DNA of 21,700 nucleotides from a virus: the IMG/VR virus record IMGVR_UViG_3300032883_000049, positions 1 through 21,700 of that record; one strand, 5' to 3'. Shown here one piece after another: positions 1,653 to 11,997 of the stretch. A program made the position numbers and the translations under genes. The notes below the pieces were generated by a model. That model had not been told where the DNA came from and made no database searches. It saw nothing but the letters and a program-made list of their open reading frames with translations. Numbering within the stretch: the first letter of the stretch is position 1; each line of letters begins with the position of its first letter.

Positions 1653-2081
1653 TCAGGCTTCTGTGACGCCCAGAGCACCAATGGCAAATGATGGCATCAC
1701 CCCGTTGGTAACGTACAGCTGAGTGGTCAGCGAACCGGAATAAAGCAGCTTCCCCGTACCACTGTTGGTAGTGCCGATTCCAACCCAACCGATTGTTGAA
1801 CCCGTATTGGTACAGGTATTGAAATTGATCGCCGCCACGTTGAGCGTCGGATTTGCCGCCGTCCAACCAGTTGTGCTTCTGGAAACCGCGACACGAGCGT
1901 AACCCGTATAAGGAGTTTCGCTTGTGCTCTGATTGCCAGAAGTTGGATCGGCAGTATGCAGGCTGCAATACAGATTTGTGTTTGGTGCAGACGCAGCATT
2001 GTCCGCGAGATTGGCGATCGCCGTTCCGTTGAAGATCAGCTTGAGAACGTCTATGCAGAAGGTTGCTTGTTTCGCACCCAT
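1653..2081 (-). CDS. phage tail-fibre-like virion protein
   Basis: A 142-residue protein. After a short helical N-terminus (LKLIFNGTAIANLADNAA) come the hallmarks of a small virion family often annotated as 'phage tail fiber protein': YCSLHTADPTSG at about 38-49, then YARVAVSRSTTGW at about 61-73, then a WVGIGTTNSGTGKLLYSG strand pair and a terminal SFAIGALGVT. In that family the fold is a compact beta-sandwich that decorates the tail or head; no enzyme activity is known to me. The start is supported by GGGAGA seven bases upstream, inside the end of the preceding gene, which stops only 3 bases before. The family assignment rests on remembered motif resemblance, not on a search. Confidence 0.8.
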   Translation of the reverse strand: MGAKQATFCIDVLKLIFNGTAIANLADNAASAPNTNLYCSLHTADPTSGNQSTSETPYTGYARVAVSRSTTGWTAANPTLNVAAINFNTCTNTGSTIGWVGIGTTNSGTGKLLYSGSLTTQLYVTNGVMPSFAIGALGVTEA

Positions 2082-2084
2082 GAT

Positions 2085-3524
2085 TTATCTCCCGATTCTG
2101 ATTCTTGTTTTATTAGACCTTAATCCCCACCCCATTTGTTCGGTGAGCATTCCCACATGAGGAGGAGGCCCCCCCTCTCCCATGATTGCAGTGACGATGG
2201 ATTGTACGGCGATCTGCGCTGCAAGTTCCCCTCTGGCCTGGAGAAGTGCCTGGAGAGTAGAAGAGGCTAAGATCATTGCTACCGCAGTCCCAGAGGTAAT
2301 CCCCAAAAGATTCGCAGCAATCGATGAACTCGCAGATATGGACGATGCCAGTAATCCTGTTGCTTGAAGCAGTGCCGCAAGAGAACTGTTTGCCTGGACT
2401 GCACTCGCCAATACTCCTATGCCATCGACAGCGGAAGTGACACTTGAACTTGATGCAAGAGCACCTACAAGGACTCCCGTCCCCTGAGCATTCGCTGCAA
2501 CGGAGGATTGCGCGGCAACAGCAGCCTCAAGATTCGCTCTTCCCTTCACATCCCCCGAGATAGAACTGGAAGCAGTTGGAGATGATTGCAGAACTCCCAC
2601 TGCCTCCACCGTCCCAGTCATGCTGGAGGAAGCAGTAACGACAGCTTCTAAAACCCCACCAGCCACCCCTCCGGTAAGATTGGCGCTGACACTGGAGGAT
2701 GCTGCTAGGCCAGAGGCGAGAACTCCAGAACCCACCAGCGCAGAAGTAACTGAGGAGGATGATGCAAGGGATGAAGCCAGTACGCCCTTTCCTGCTGTTG
2801 CCGCCGCTACCGACGAACTTGCGACGATGGAACCTACCAGAGCCGTCTTGCCTTTTACTACTGCCGCTACAGAAGATGATGCGGCGACGGAAGAGGCTAA
2901 AGCAGTGTTTCCTCCTACTGCTGAAGAGACAGAGCTTGATGCGACGATTGAAGCCGTGATCGCCGTCGGCCCGCCTGCCAGATTACCACCTTCCCAGTTG
3001 TCTCCCCTCAATCCTGTCACATCGCCGTAAGCGGAGACCCCAGCGCCGCCGCCACTAAGAGAGGTCTTCCCCGTATAGGTCTTTACCGTGGCACCGTTCA
3101 CTTTTATATAAATTGTGCCTGGTGTAGATGGATTTGGTTCCATCCTGAGAACGTCGTTTTCCGCGAATAATTGCAAAGTTCCAGAATCCCAATCGGTATT
3201 TACCGAGTTGACGACGTCGCCACAAAAAAATTTGGCGTTAGACGTATATGCCTGAACATAGAAACCAGATGCCGGACTTTGCGCCCTGATGGAAACGCCG
3301 ACATAACCATCCGCTGTGATATTTACCAAATTGCATTGGGAGTAATGAGCAGCATTGAATGCGTCAGCATTCCACAGACATATTACATTTGCATCAGTGC
3401 TACCACCGATGAAACCGTTGGTGTTTATTTTCATGATGCCGACTAATGCAGTCCAATGTACACTATAGGTCGGCAGTTCAGTTCCATTAACGCCGGTAAA
3501 AGTGTCCGTCGCAGGAAGTGCCAT
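2085..3524 (-). CDS. LamG-like protein with 20-residue Ala/Ser/Val repeats
   Basis: A 479-residue protein. Residues 1 to about 182 look like a concanavalin/LamG-type jelly roll: TFTGVNGTELP, DGYVGVSIRAQ, GFYVQAY, LRMEPNP, YIKVNGATVKTYTG, then GLRGDNWEGG. Such domains usually bind carbohydrate or mediate host contact. From about residue 186 to 448 there are twelve or so copies of a 20-residue unit, approximately ASSSVxxxxxGxxxLxxxxx. The C-terminal 30 residues (GGPPPHVGMLTEQMGW and a basic end) are unique. Similar Ser/Val repeat tails occur in phage virion proteins of unknown function. The ATG at 3524 directly abuts the TAA of the upstream gene, with GGAG overlapping that gene's end. I infer a tail fibre or decoration protein in which the repeat forms an extended stalk; the binding partner is unknown. 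Confidence 0.8.
   Translation of the reverse strand: MALPATDTFTGVNGTELPTYSVHWTALVGIMKINTNGFIGGSTDANVICLWNADAFNAAHYSQCNLVNITADGYVGVSIRAQSPASGFYVQAYTSNAKFFCGDVVNSVNTDWDSGTLQLFAENDVLRMEPNPSTPGTIYIKVNGATVKTYTGKTSLSGGGAGVSAYGDVTGLRGDNWEGGNLAGGPTAITASIVASSSVSSAVGGNTALASSVAASSSVAAVVKGKTALVGSIVASSSVAAATAGKGVLASSLASSSSVTSALVGSGVLASGLAASSSVSANLTGGVAGGVLEAVVTASSSMTGTVEAVGVLQSSPTASSSISGDVKGRANLEAAVAAQSSVAANAQGTGVLVGALASSSSVTSAVDGIGVLASAVQANSSLAALLQATGLLASSISASSSIAANLLGITSGTAVAMILASSTLQALLQARGELAAQIAVQSIVTAIMGEGGPPPHVGMLTEQMGWGLRSNKTRIRIGR
2181..2969 (-). repeat. protein-level 20-residue tandem repeat array (60-base units)
   Basis: About twelve consecutive units with the anchor [AS]SSSV, a Gly near position 11 and a Leu near position 15. 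Most units are exactly 20 residues; two are 22-23. The units have diverged strongly at DNA level, so the periodicity is clear in the protein but not as identical DNA copies. This suggests an old array under selection for protein shape rather than recent slippage. Confidence 0.85.
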
Positions 3525-8339: not shown

Positions 8340-9622
8340 TTAGTAGATGTGGTTCGGCGTCCCCACCGTGGCAGTGATCCCGTCCAGTCGGAAGCTCTCG
8401 TTCGGACGATCGGTATGGTGCTCGTCGAAAATCCGATAGAATGCTTCCCACATGTCGTATCCCGCCACGTTGCGGAAGATCCGCTCATCTTCATCGGCCC
8501 ACTCGCCGCGTACGTTGATGTAACGGACGATCGAGCCCTTGATGGTTCCGAACAGAGTTCCGTAAGGAGCGTGCTTTGCGATCCTCCAGGGACGATCACC
8601 GTAGGTGATTTCTCCGCCCTTCTTGAGAGCCGCCTGTTTCGTTCCGCCATCCGGTGACTTCAGGTCAGCGCCGGAATACCGCCTGTCGGCCTGCAGGAGT
8701 TTCAGATACTCTCTGCGAACGCTGTGGTGGCAGAAGAAAACGCCGTCATTTGCGAAGTTGCCGCCACCGAGTTCATCCGAGGCATCGATGCCACGCTGGA
8801 TCACATCCAGGGTAAGCTGTCCCACAGAAGAAAACACGGTGGACTTGAAAACCGGATACGTGGTCCGGTTGACACCCGAAAGAGTGTTGGCGTAGGTGCC
8901 ATCATCGATCAGGCCCAGGAGACCCATGACCTCGTTGCCGTAGCTGTTCTTGCTACCGTCAGTAGAGATCCCCGAGACGTACTTGCAGCGCACCCAACGA
9001 CTGTTGTCGCTGAAGGTGGTCGATTGCGTTGCGGCGATCTTGACCGAAGTGCCAGCGGCGGTAATCGTCGAGACCTTCACAACTCCTTCGATGGTAGTCG
9101 CCGTGGTCGGATCAAGAACTGCGCAGTACATGTTAGGGTTGAGGAACCGGGCACCGTTCACAGCCCCCGAAACGTTGTATGGGCTATCCACGTTGAAAGT
9201 CGTGGTGTTGGTCATGCACTGAGCGCCGTACGTCAGACACAAGATGCCGGTTCCGGCACCAAACGCCTGTCTCTCGCGCTCATTCGCAAGATCCTTCACC
9301 AACCCCTTGATTTCCGATTCCATGGCCCTGGTGAACGCGCCTTCGCTCTTCAGGGATGCCTTGATGACCTGCCCCGTGAGCTGTACGCGCCCGTAGTTGT
9401 ACTTCGCGGTGATCGAGACATCCACGTAACCCTGAGCGCCAGCAGCCGGTAGGGGATCCCCCTCAGCCGACGCACCAACACCCTGGTTGCGCGAAATGTG
9501 CAGAGGATACTTCACCACGCGTCCCGTCCAGTCGGCTGAATCGTTCTCGTCGATCCAGTCCGCAAGGACGTTCTGCATGTTCAACTGCTCTTCGATGCGC
9601 GGCCCGTAAACCTCTTTGCAAA
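8340..9622 (-). CDS. major capsid protein, exon 2 (residues about 19-445)
   Basis: HK97-fold-like major capsid protein: the abundant shell subunit. The frame has no good start of its own, and in-frame text upstream of the first ATG/TTG reads KEVYGPRIEEQLN, a typical early motif of capsid proteins of this type. This shows that the N-terminus is encoded elsewhere, in the exon at 10294-10348. Later landmarks are VDVSITAKYNYGRVQLTGQV, MESEIKGLVKDLANERERQA, WVRCKYVSG, FFCHHSVRREYLKLLQADRR, and near the end YDMWEAFYRIFDEHHTDRPN. Joining after T10294 and before T9622 gives 1338 bases, 445 codons plus stop, within the usual capsid range. It follows the scaffold gene. A start at 9584 (TTG), used if no splicing is assumed, would lose the N-terminal arm. 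Confidence 0.85.
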
Positions 9623-10293
9623 CTGTTACGACCTCAATTTATGAGGCGGCTACTCGTTTCCGGTAGCTCTGCAGGTCGCCCTGCAGTTCGGATCGTTTCT
9701 TCATCCATCGTAGGAGTCACCCGTTCGGTCTCTCGCTGGGAAGGAAGTGCTTCATTCTCAACCGGTCCCATACGGTATCGGTTCAGGTGCTTCATCTTCG
9801 TGATGAGCAGTGAGCGCTTCTCGAACAGTTTCATGTCGCGGCCAGAGAACCGATTTCTTCCCTGAGCCGTTCCAAGCTCTACAAATTCCAGCATAGTCTC
9901 CGCTTGTCGTTTCTTCGCCACCAGATAGGGCATAATCGACTTGCACAAAATAGCCATATCCGCAAACGAAGTGACCTGGATCAACCAAGAACTTTTCCGA
10001 TTTCCTCTTCCCTTGATACTGCAGTACCGAAACTCATGATTGATGATCTGTTCCAAAATCTGCTTTACCCCGAGAATGAGTTCGATCGAAGTGTTCCCTA
10101 CAGCAAAAGAGCACTTGATCACCGGAAAGTGGTTTCGGTCGTAGGTAGCCGTCAGATAGAAAGATCCCTCTCCATCTGCGATCCCTGCGAGCCATGCCAA
10201 CTGTTCGTTAATGGTAGTCACATTCTTCCTTAGCTGGGCGTTTTCTCCGAAGAGACGTTCGCCCTTTTGGGTGAATTTTACTTGAGCATTGCT
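9623..10293 (-). ncRNA. group I intron interrupting the major capsid gene
   Basis: 671 bases between two parts of one capsid frame. P1: 10300-10294 (CTTGAGT) pairs with 10287-10281 (GCTCAAG), placing the conserved U.G at the 5' splice site. P10: the 3' exon TTGC (9621-9618) pairs with GCAA (10292-10289). The intron ends in G9623. P3: TCACCC (10274-10269) with GGGTGA (9722-9717). J3/4 is AAAA. P4: GGGCG (10264-10260) with CGCCC (10240-10236). P5: TCTC-TTCG-GAGA (10255-10244). P6: AAGGAAG (10231-10225) with CTTCCTT (9747-9741), with the ORF in its loop. Three 3' hairpins (9686-9669, 9667-9649, 9646-9632; two with GNRA loops) resemble P9-type domains. An R-like string (GAGAGACCGAACGG) and an S-like AAGAAACGATCCG are present, but I could not pair them as P7. 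Confidence 0.82.
9634..10221 (-). CDS. LAGLIDADG homing endonuclease, intron-encoded
   Basis: A 195-residue protein from a GTG at 10221, with AAGGAAG four bases upstream. A single LAGLIDADG motif, LAWLAGIADGEGSFYL (residues 8-23), carries the acidic residue that cuts DNA; single-motif members act as homodimers. A beta-strand saddle (FPVIKCSFAVGNTSIELILG) and then YLVAKKRQAETMLEFVELG follow the family order. It would cut the intronless capsid gene and so spread the intron. From about residue 151 on, the frame runs through the intron's 3' core, and the low-complexity tail is probably not part of the fold. Reading from the ATG at 10320, inside exon 1, is possible on the unspliced RNA but lacks a ribosome site. 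Confidence 0.88.
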   Translation of the reverse strand: MTTINEQLAWLAGIADGEGSFYLTATYDRNHFPVIKCSFAVGNTSIELILGVKQILEQIINHEFRYCSIKGRGNRKSSWLIQVTSFADMAILCKSIMPYLVAKKRQAETMLEFVELGTAQGRNRFSGRDMKLFEKRSLLITKMKHLNRYRMGPVENEALPSQRETERVTPTMDEETIRTAGRPAELPETSSRLIN

Positions 10294-10348
10294 ACTCAAG
10301 GCCCCCATTGAGGGCGGCATCGAAGCCGGTTAAGTCCTGTCCTGCCAT
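10294..10348 (-). CDS. major capsid protein, exon 1 (N-terminal 18 residues)
   Basis: ATG at 10348, with GAGG upstream, encodes MAGQDLTGFDAALNGGLE and one base of the next codon. On the unspliced transcript it stops at once at TAG (10294-10292), so it has no use as a separate gene. Spliced at T10294/T9622, it reads ...NGGLEFCKEVYGPRIEEQLN, joining directly to the capsid frame. It begins 16 bases after the scaffold stop, where a capsid gene is expected. An alternative join four bases away on both sides (after T10299 and G9619, reading NGGLKEVYG) keeps the frame too, but has no U.G pair at the splice site. Confidence 0.82.
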
Positions 10349-10364
10349 AATTGCTTACCTCACA

Positions 10365-11177
10365 TCAGTCTTGTCTACCTGCTTGCAGAATAGCCCAAGC
10401 TTGCTTGTGAGCAGATTTGGTGATCCCCTTGTCGTCTTTGTCCTTCGACTGCTGTGACAAGGTTCCCTGAGCACTAGGAAGCGTGGGCAACCGTGAAATC
10501 CGTCGCCGATCCGCTATGTCCTTGCTCTGTGCAGGTGTGGCCTTCCTGATTACCCCGAGAAAGTCCTTTTCAAGTACTGCGTAGGCTTTCTTGATGCAGG
10601 AAAGGTTGCCAGAAGCCCAGAGCCTTTTGAGTTTTGGATCCTGGTCTATTTCCAGCATAACCTGTCGAGCGAGACGGGCAACTGCCGCCTCATTCTTAGC
10701 CGGTATCCCTGCTGCCGTGGCAAGTTCGCGGATCTGTTCCTCTGCCGCGTCAAACTGCGCTTCAATGCGATCTGTCTGGTCCTGTTTCTGTTGCTCGATG
10801 TACTGAGCATACTCAGGGTCAGCCTTACGCATCAAAGCTTTGATTTCCTTCAGTTTGGCGGGAGAGATCTCCCCTTCCTGTTCGGCGGCTTTGGCAGCGG
10901 CAACCATCTGAGCTTTGTGCTTTTGGAACTCGATAACGTCGTTTGGATCGCCTATGTTAGCGCGATACCAGTTGGCGATTTCCTCAGCTTGTTTTCTCTG
11001 TTGGAGAAGTTGCTGGAAGCGCTGCTGCGCCTTTTTGGAGAGGGGCTGATCAGACTCTTCACCTTCCGGGTTTTGGTCGGCTCCGGCTTCCGAGGCTTCA
11101 AGGGATTCGTCTTTTACTTCGATTTGTTCGTCTGTAGCCGTTGACGAGGCGGCTCCTGTTTTTCCGTCATCTGGCAT
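10365..11177 (-). CDS. capsid scaffolding protein
   Basis: A 270-residue, highly charged, mostly helical protein just before the capsid gene. It has an acidic low-complexity N-terminus (about 1-45), then KKAQQRFQQLLQQRKQAEEI and a long Ala/Glu/Gln-rich coiled-coil region, and a basic polar C-terminus (KSAHKQAWAILQAG). These are the normal traits of phage scaffolds, which drive prohead assembly and then leave or are cleaved. The 'KKAQQRFQQLLQQRK' segment is a common scaffold feature in podovirus-like genomes. The start at the ATG follows AGGAC. An 85-base gap upstream may hold its own promoter, but I see no convincing -35/-10 pair. Confidence 0.85.
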   Translation of the reverse strand: MPDDGKTGAASSTATDEQIEVKDESLEASEAGADQNPEGEESDQPLSKKAQQRFQQLLQQRKQAEEIANWYRANIGDPNDVIEFQKHKAQMVAAAKAAEQEGEISPAKLKEIKALMRKADPEYAQYIEQQKQDQTDRIEAQFDAAEEQIRELATAAGIPAKNEAAVARLARQVMLEIDQDPKLKRLWASGNLSCIKKAYAVLEKDFLGVIRKATPAQSKDIADRRRISRLPTLPSAQGTLSQQSKDKDDKGITKSAHKQAWAILQAGRQD

Positions 11178-11262
11178 ACACTGAGTCCTCGTGACGTGAG
11201 GTTTCCGATAGTTTCACGCCACAAGGACTAACACAGTGCGGGAAGAGTGCAAGTGGTATTTT

Positions 11263-11997
11263 TCAGAATGCAGATTTCATGTGCGGATACTTCTCTAGGA
11301 AACGCTGGAGGTTCGAGTGACGTTCCGACTCCCTGGCGAAGCTGCATGACCAATTCTTTCCACGGTCCAGACTAGCTCCACCAGCGCCATGCTTGATGAC
11401 GAGATCACTACAGATCATCGTCCAGAAACCCTCAGCCCTGGCACGCATACAATAGTCGTCATCATCGAACCCGTAGCCAGTGAAGGTTTCATCCAGAAGA
11501 CCAATCTTGTCAATCAATTCCCGTTTGATGTAGACGCATGGGAAGCAGACAGTTAACTGGGAGCCGAAGATGTTTGAGAGGCTGGATCGCAGTTCCCTGA
11601 CCCTACTGAAACTTTGCCAACTGTTTCCCACCCCACCATCGATCAGGGGACTGATCAGACCGCACCTTTCCCATTCGTAGGCTCTTTGATGGAGTTTGGC
11701 AAAGAAGTCGTCTTCCACAACCTCCATGTCATCGTTGAGTAGAATTACGTCGTGAGGGAGAATATCTCCAACAAGAATTTTGATTCCACAGTTTGCATTT
11801 TTCGCGTAAATGAATGGCTTCTCAGCATCCACGTAGAAGCAGTCACCATACCATCCGGGATCATCAAAAGTCTCCTCGTGTCCGTCCCTGACCACGATTA
11901 TTCTTTGCCAATATTTGCTGTGTTTCCTGATTGACTCAATGAGGTTGCGAGCGTACTCAGGGTACTTGCTTAAGATCACTATTCCGTAGGGATTCAT
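11263..11997 (-). CDS. glycosyltransferase family 2-like protein
   Basis: A 244-residue GT-A fold enzyme that moves a sugar from a nucleotide donor to an acceptor. The N-terminus YGIVILSKYPEYARNLIESI is a Rossmann-like start; DVILLNDDMEVV (about 83-94) holds the metal-binding DxD-like NDD; TGYGFDDDDYCMRARAEGFW (about 173-192) is the typical acceptor/catalytic-base block of GT2 rhamnosyl- or glucosyl-transferases, and IKHGAGGAS closes the site. No membrane segment is seen, so it acts in the cytoplasm. The start overlaps the zinc-ribbon gene by 41 bases and has AGGAG eight bases upstream. It lies apart from the three-glycosyltransferase island, between portal and scaffold. The substrate is unknown. 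Confidence 0.85.
   Translation of the reverse strand: MNPYGIVILSKYPEYARNLIESIRKHSKYWQRIIVVRDGHEETFDDPGWYGDCFYVDAEKPFIYAKNANCGIKILVGDILPHDVILLNDDMEVVEDDFFAKLHQRAYEWERCGLISPLIDGGVGNSWQSFSRVRELRSSLSNIFGSQLTVCFPCVYIKRELIDKIGLLDETFTGYGFDDDDYCMRARAEGFWTMICSDLVIKHGAGGASLDRGKNWSCSFARESERHSNLQRFLEKYPHMKSAF

Follow-up and report, generated by a model that had tools for sequence, protein, structure and literature searches.

Introns in phage capsid genes have been described before. In the mycobacteriophage LittleE (JF937101), the major capsid gene carries an intron that is most likely of group I according to its authors and that contains a LAGLIDADG-like ORF, and its splicing was demonstrated by RT-PCR and by N-terminal protein sequencing (PMC3706429). 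The same report also cites a capsid-gene intron in the lactococcal phage Tuc2009. Among the crAss-like phages, group I introns in the major capsid protein (MCP) genes of the Delta and Zeta groups were inferred from metagenomes, and in one Zeta genome the MCP is described as lying in five fragments (PMC7886860). The original prediction for the locus reported here set a capsid-gene intron against phage introns at large, which it described as best known from DNA metabolism genes. The novelty implied there does not hold: capsid-gene introns were already published (PMC3706429, PMC7886860), and the present intron is a further, well-supported example. As described, the LittleE intron resembles it in its position in a capsid gene, its LAGLIDADG-like ORF, the U before the intron and the G at its end. 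LittleE differs in being another type of phage, with an HK97-like capsid and with the endonuclease on the opposite strand, and the two endonucleases match over a stretch of 22 columns only (E 5e-4). The likeness to the crAss-like phages, judged from their published description, lies in the MCP introns, while the phages themselves are different and larger. Among the matches listed from the open-licence literature, we found no earlier report of this capsid insertion site.

We analysed a 21,700-base virus record (IMGVR_UViG_3300032883_000049, positions 1-21,700), referred to here as the window. Its gene content fits a tailed phage: the portal and adaptor proteins are SU10-like, and the major capsid protein is of the podovirus type. 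Between 11263 and 20311, glycosyltransferase-like, methyltransferase-like and radical SAM/SPASM proteins are encoded among the head genes (two of them detected only below the Pfam cut-off), and their presence in this region seems unusual. A 479-residue protein at 2085-3524 has many imperfect VASSSVSAA-type repeats (as judged by eye) and no Pfam match at E up to 0.1. Our analysis makes it very likely that a mobile group I intron, 692 nt long (minus strand, 10310-9619), interrupts the major capsid gene at CT^C, with splicing and homing as proposed below. The parts of the gene are as follows.

10358-10361, minus strand: GAGG, ribosome-binding motif of the capsid gene (from sequence)
10311-10348, minus strand: exon 1 of the major capsid gene, 38 nt from the ATG at 10348, encoding MAGQDLTGFDAA plus the first two bases of a Leu codon; top-scoring among 877 in-frame junctions compared with 19 relatives
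9619-10310, minus strand: group I intron, 692 nt; exon 1 ends at T10311 and the intron ends at G9619
8340-9618, minus strand: exon 2 of the major capsid gene; the spliced product has 438 residues

The capsid identity of exon 2 is given by NF033394 (capsid_maj_Podo, E 7.5e-37) and phrog_14242 (major head protein, E 5.8e-50). As had been noted earlier, the capsid ORF (8340-9584, minus strand) lacks a proper N-terminus and begins inside the conserved protein, and capsid-like text in the same frame, KEVYGPRIEEQLN, stands upstream of its first start codon. We compared the gene with 20 relatives, i.e. five of the 13 phage records that match the capsid and 15 IMG/VR relatives (some are near-duplicates, e.g. 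L033/L034). The capsid query by itself found no relative in IMG/VR; alignment queries did, and found GTDB contigs too. All 20 relatives are uninterrupted and carry K(E/D)VY about 11-16 residues past the start, the N-terminus of intron-free relatives reading ...FDAAL-K(E/D)VY. Seven further loci comprised three already seen, two uninterrupted ones (L049 and L051), one that starts within the gene (L050) and one that bears an intron (L052). A short start segment like MAGQDLTGFDAAL precedes the motif in the 20 relatives and in L049 and L051 (those with a readable N-terminus), and L049 alone has KIVY in its place.

To locate the junction, every in-frame, stop-free join was scored, with exon 1 ending between 10345 and 10270 and exon 2 starting between 9660 and 9590. 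The 877 junctions gave 481 distinct proteins, which were scored against 19 of the 20 relatives (L041 was left out, as the script gave it no M start). The T10311/C9618 class had the top mean score over these 19 and was the best for 16 of them; the remaining three each scored another junction highest. The top protein begins MAGQDLTGFDAALKEVYGPRIEEQLN..., contains no stop in its 438 residues, and is 67% identical to the intact relative L038 over residues 4-438. Removing the intron in silico thus restores the protein seen in the relatives. A shared CAA allows four equivalent placements of the junction, all giving one mRNA, and T10311/C9618 was chosen among them because the group I U...G rule selects it. 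The intron so defined starts CAAUG, ends UUUG, and lies between the second and third base of a Leu codon (CT^C), just ahead of the conserved K(E/D)VY. Read unspliced from the capsid start, the frame meets a stop after 18 residues.

The original prediction had placed the splice elsewhere, joining T10294 to T9622 to give a 445-residue capsid with a 671-nt intron, a 55-nt start exon, and CTTGAGT/GCTCAAG as P1. Part of that proposal stands: the T10294/T9622 frame is indeed open over 445 codons and also obeys the U...G rule, a capsid start exon does exist at ATG 10348, and alignment with homologous capsids favours a spliced start exon. However, that exon is shorter than claimed (38 rather than 55 nt), the intron at the best junction has 692 nt, and the best-supported product has 438 residues. 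The T10294/T9622 join yields MAGQDLTGFDAALNGGLEFCKEVY..., in which a seven-residue insert, NGGLEFC, is absent from the aligned relatives; it ranks 319 of 481, and the best junction outscores it for 19/19 relatives. The pairing taken for P1 (CTTGAG/CTCAAG) is real but is the P2 hairpin, conserved in the window and in L052, the actual P1 being GCCCU/GGGGC. The proposed P10 (TTGC/GCAA) falls together with that P1, and at the corrected site at most 2 bp of P10 are possible (by eye). We regard a group I intron spliced in this earlier way as very unlikely, and the following results refer to the T10311/C9618 junction.

Evidence for an inserted element came from two contigs of one Bacteroidetes MAG. 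L052 carries a homologous intron of 680 nt at the same Leu codon of the capsid gene, its capsid being 70% identical to that of the window in the best segment; its unspliced reading meets a stop after 13 residues. L051, from the same MAG, has an intron-free (empty) site. Positions 1-1160 and 1839-4939 of L052 match 1847-3005 and 3004-6109 of L051 at 83% and 79%, so that both flanks of the L052 intron are contiguous in L051. When 296 genomes from the same phylum as L052's genome were searched, the single match at E up to 1e-10 was that genome's own copy.

The introns of the window and L052 share one consistent group I fold (P1, P2, P3-P8, P9, P9.1 and P9.2), with the endonuclease in P6. The elements in the window are listed here.

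10301-10315, minus strand: P1, GCCCU (exon 1 end, 10315-10311) with GGGGC (10305-10301), U.G at the splice site
10281-10300, minus strand: P2 hairpin, 8 bp, GCAA loop; four two-sided changes against L052
10269-10274, minus strand: P3 5' strand, UCACCC, pairing with 9722-9717; 4/6 pairs two-sided against L052
10236-10264, minus strand: P4 (10264-10260/10240-10236) and P5 (10255-10252/10247-10244), UUCG loop
10225-10234, minus strand: 5' strands of P6 (GCU, 10234-10232) and P6a (AAGGAAG, 10231-10225)
9735-9747, minus strand: 3' strands of P6a (CUUCCUU, 9747-9741) and P6 (AGC, 9737-9735)
9726-9730, minus strand: P7 5' strand, GACCG, from comparison with L052 and L059
9717-9722, minus strand: P3 3' strand, GGGUGA, from comparison with L052 and L059
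9704-9715, minus strand: P8, weak in the window (3 bp)
9691-9695, minus strand: P7 3' strand, CGAUC; four of five pairs form and C9728.A9693 fails
9669-9686, minus strand: P9 hairpin, GCGA loop, from comparison with L052 and L059
9649-9667, minus strand: P9.1 hairpin, GAAA loop; three two-sided changes against L052
9632-9646, minus strand: P9.2 hairpin; three two-sided changes against L052

Between the window and L052, 36 of the 58 core pairs are identical, 2 changed on one side, 19 changed on both sides with pairing kept, and 1 is broken. We drew the helices manually while looking at the sequences, a procedure that by construction favours the pairing percentage. Eight slid controls, in which the 3' partners were shifted by 1-4 bases either way, gave 0-1 two-sided changes; they preserve the relatedness of the sequences but not the bias of hand-drawing. 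The pseudoknot helices P3 and P7 contribute 4 and 2 of the 19 two-sided changes. The P3-P4-P6-P7 core with its P3/P7 pseudoknot is present and backed by covariation. The original prediction had also listed P3, P4, P5 and P6; helices of these names exist, although it gave no coordinates with which to compare them. The U at the end of exon 1 pairs with G in P1 in both introns (U10311.G10305 in the window), and the P2 loop is GCAA in the window and GUAA in L052 (by eye). P7 of the window has a G-C pair that we take to be the one expected at the guanosine site, and its C.A mismatch (C9728.A9693) may be natural, result from misassembly or indicate decay. Folds with P7 as GACC/GGUC (9633-9630) or as GGUGACUC/GAGUAGCC were dropped after L052 fixed P7, P9.1 and P9.2. 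The empty-site contig, the homologous intron at the same codon and the RNA covariation together lend strong support to the predicted group I intron in the major capsid gene, in agreement with the original prediction on this central point, and the intron is probably self-splicing.

Searches with parts of the fold gave a third intron. A search with a 3'-domain pattern led to a single IMG/VR contig, L059. Its 698-nt intron (11170-11867) interrupts a different phage gene, contains a LAGLIDADG-like ORF and has a 3' domain related to that of the other two introns. When its exons are joined after T and before A, the matches of the protein span the junction (phrog_23653, of unknown function, E 7.6e-34; phrog_4176, tail fiber, E 9.3e-5), as do those to three phage records at 33-35% identity, and the host gene is possibly a tail gene. 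In eight helices, likewise placed by hand, 113 of the 114 cells in the three introns are paired and 20 of the 38 pairs show two-sided change, against 0-3 such changes in six slid controls; P4 of the window is also backed by this three-way comparison. All three introns end in G (G9619 in the window, being one of four equivalent placements). The introns found were therefore two at this capsid site and one elsewhere. A P4-P5 pattern search gave zero matches. A 16-base core pattern hit 14 IMG/VR contigs, none of which showed the endonuclease motif within 700 bases upstream or, by eye, the core downstream; we judged these hits to be chance.

We also evaluated the introns against Rfam, a check that the original prediction had proposed. 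The window gave no match to the group I models, whole or in pieces, at gathering and permissive thresholds, even with E up to 10. L052 (1148-1782) matched RF00028 over the full model at 20.0 bits (E 0.021), the middle of the alignment running through the endonuclease and conflicting there with the proposed P6-P7, and L059 gave a partial match of 12.6 bits (E 2.1). As a control, the LittleE capsid intron scored 30.7 bits (E 1.6e-5). All three fall below the RF00028 gathering score of 50, which is a detection threshold and not a defining feature of the group I class. Failing the curated threshold counts weakly against the intron, because the RT-PCR-verified LittleE intron fails it as well; the window's miss at E up to 10 counts somewhat more. 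In the joined ribonucleotide reductase gene of Pseudomonas phage KIL1 (L024:2604-2823), a sub-threshold group I match (21.3 bits, E 0.18) is cut off at the locus end. The points counted against the intron are the Rfam miss, C9728.A9693, the 3-bp P8, the 2-bp P10, the small number of introns, and the other junctions preferred by 3/19 relatives.

Most of the window intron is taken up by an ORF that the original prediction did not mention.

9634-10221, minus strand: LAGLIDADG homing endonuclease ORF with a GTG start at 10221; conserved domain at about residues 1-150, the tail overlapping the 3' ribozyme core

The LAGLIDADG motif, whose acidic residue is catalytic, reads WLAGIADGEGSF in the window and WMAGIADGEGSF in L052. 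The protein matches phrog_5046 (E 5.9e-11; labelled HNH endonuclease in PHROG) and, with phmmer, I-MsoI (natural chain 1m5x, E 0.0026; the doubled single-chain construct 3fd2, E 3e-8 from two stretches of 0.03 each). Pfam LAGLIDADG_3 (15.6 bits, cut-off 22.5) and LAGLIDADG_1 (13.8 bits, cut-off 23.1) stay below their curated scores, which are detection thresholds. An AlphaFold2 model (mean pLDDT 62.5, from a 2-row alignment) has the alpha-beta-beta-alpha-beta-beta-alpha fold, and Foldseek placed it with I-MsoI/I-CreI (best E 7.3e-7, TM 0.49 by query, about 18% identity). The window endonuclease thus resembles these single-motif LAGLIDADG enzymes in sequence and predicted fold; unlike them, it has an extra tail over the ribozyme core. 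Compared with L052, residues 1-150 have pS 0.79 and pN 0.27, while the 39 codons of the tail have pS 0.38 and pN 0.48, so the domain, unlike the tail, looks to be under purifying selection as a protein. In the window (9634-9770), L052 (1700-1826) and L059 (11740-11846), the endonuclease frame continues without a stop across the 3' ribozyme domain, with a common register and similar C-terminal peptides; in L059 it is open from exon 1 through almost the entire intron. This openness in all three introns apparently follows from RNA conservation.

The 5' strand of P6a, AAGGAAG (10231-10225), complementary to CUUCCUU, is likely the endonuclease ribosome-binding site. We infer that in the window P6a folding for splicing and endonuclease translation may exclude each other, as in a switch; the P6a-type pairing over the ribosome-binding site is shorter in L052. 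A wider reading combines this switch with the view that the three introns form a ribozyme subfamily which Rfam detects poorly or never and which has spread among phage virion genes with different LAGLIDADG enzymes. We consider this combination rather unlikely.

The endonuclease query by itself found no relative in IMG/VR, and an alignment search gave four. Phage endonucleases retrieved with the StenR_269 homologue belong to the same broad family. Besides StenR_269 there are 37 such records, at thyX, DNA methylase and other loci in Pseudomonas KIL, Rhizobium, Gordonia, Streptomyces, Mycobacterium and Caulobacter phages, with 24-33% identity to the StenR_269 protein. Nine of these loci were scanned, and no group I core was found near the endonuclease at E up to 1. 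In the Stenotrophomonas phage StenR_269 itself (L007:2910-3430), the endonuclease lies between the scaffold and capsid genes; a capsid-start-like stub, MSFSGMHFS, is followed by a stop before it, and a differently coded start, MSFSGMQYG, comes after it. This arrangement looks like a free-standing endonuclease with a remade capsid 5' end rather than an intron.

The StenR_269 gene, which precedes a capsid gene apparently without splicing, is one reason to consider that a homing endonuclease gene has been inserted here with no functional intron around it. In that case the capsid would be translated from an internal start (TTG 9584), or its gene would be broken. The broken P7 pair and the absence of an Rfam group I match to the window also fit such an insertion. 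However, it does not account for the exact reading frame that intron removal restores, for the 19 two-sided RNA pair changes against L052, or for the core common to the third intron, and an internal start would drop KEVY, which is invariant in the six capsids of alignment A1. This explanation therefore appears highly improbable to us. An intein, a group II intron or translational bypass has next to no probability. Although a homing endonuclease that splits a conserved gene also fits an intein, the exon 1 frame runs into a stop after 18 codons and differs from the endonuclease frame, leaving no single open frame. The Rfam group II families gave no match to the window, and the CAAUG...UUUG ends differ from the GUGYG...AY ends of group II introns. 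At 692 nt, the element is also far longer than known translational bypass.

For the mobile group I intron, we propose the following course of events. The pre-mRNA would fold into P1-P9.2, a guanosine bound in P7 would attack after U10311, and the freed end of exon 1 would then attack after G9619. The joined mRNA would encode the 438-residue capsid protein carrying the exon 1 N-terminal peptide MAGQDLTGFDAALKEVY / MAGQDLTGFDAALK; RNA from the capsid start left unspliced would yield just an 18-residue peptide. The LAGLIDADG protein would cut the intron-free capsid genes of co-infecting relatives, and repair would copy the intron in. The intron-bearing L052 and the intron-free L051, from one MAG, form a natural pair in which homing into a capsid gene could be tested.

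These findings suggest that phage introns with an endonuclease in P6 can escape the standard group I model, and such introns may be under-counted. If the proposed intron is real, gene callers will annotate the capsid gene without its true start, and the capsid of this phage and of the L052-type phage would depend on RNA splicing.
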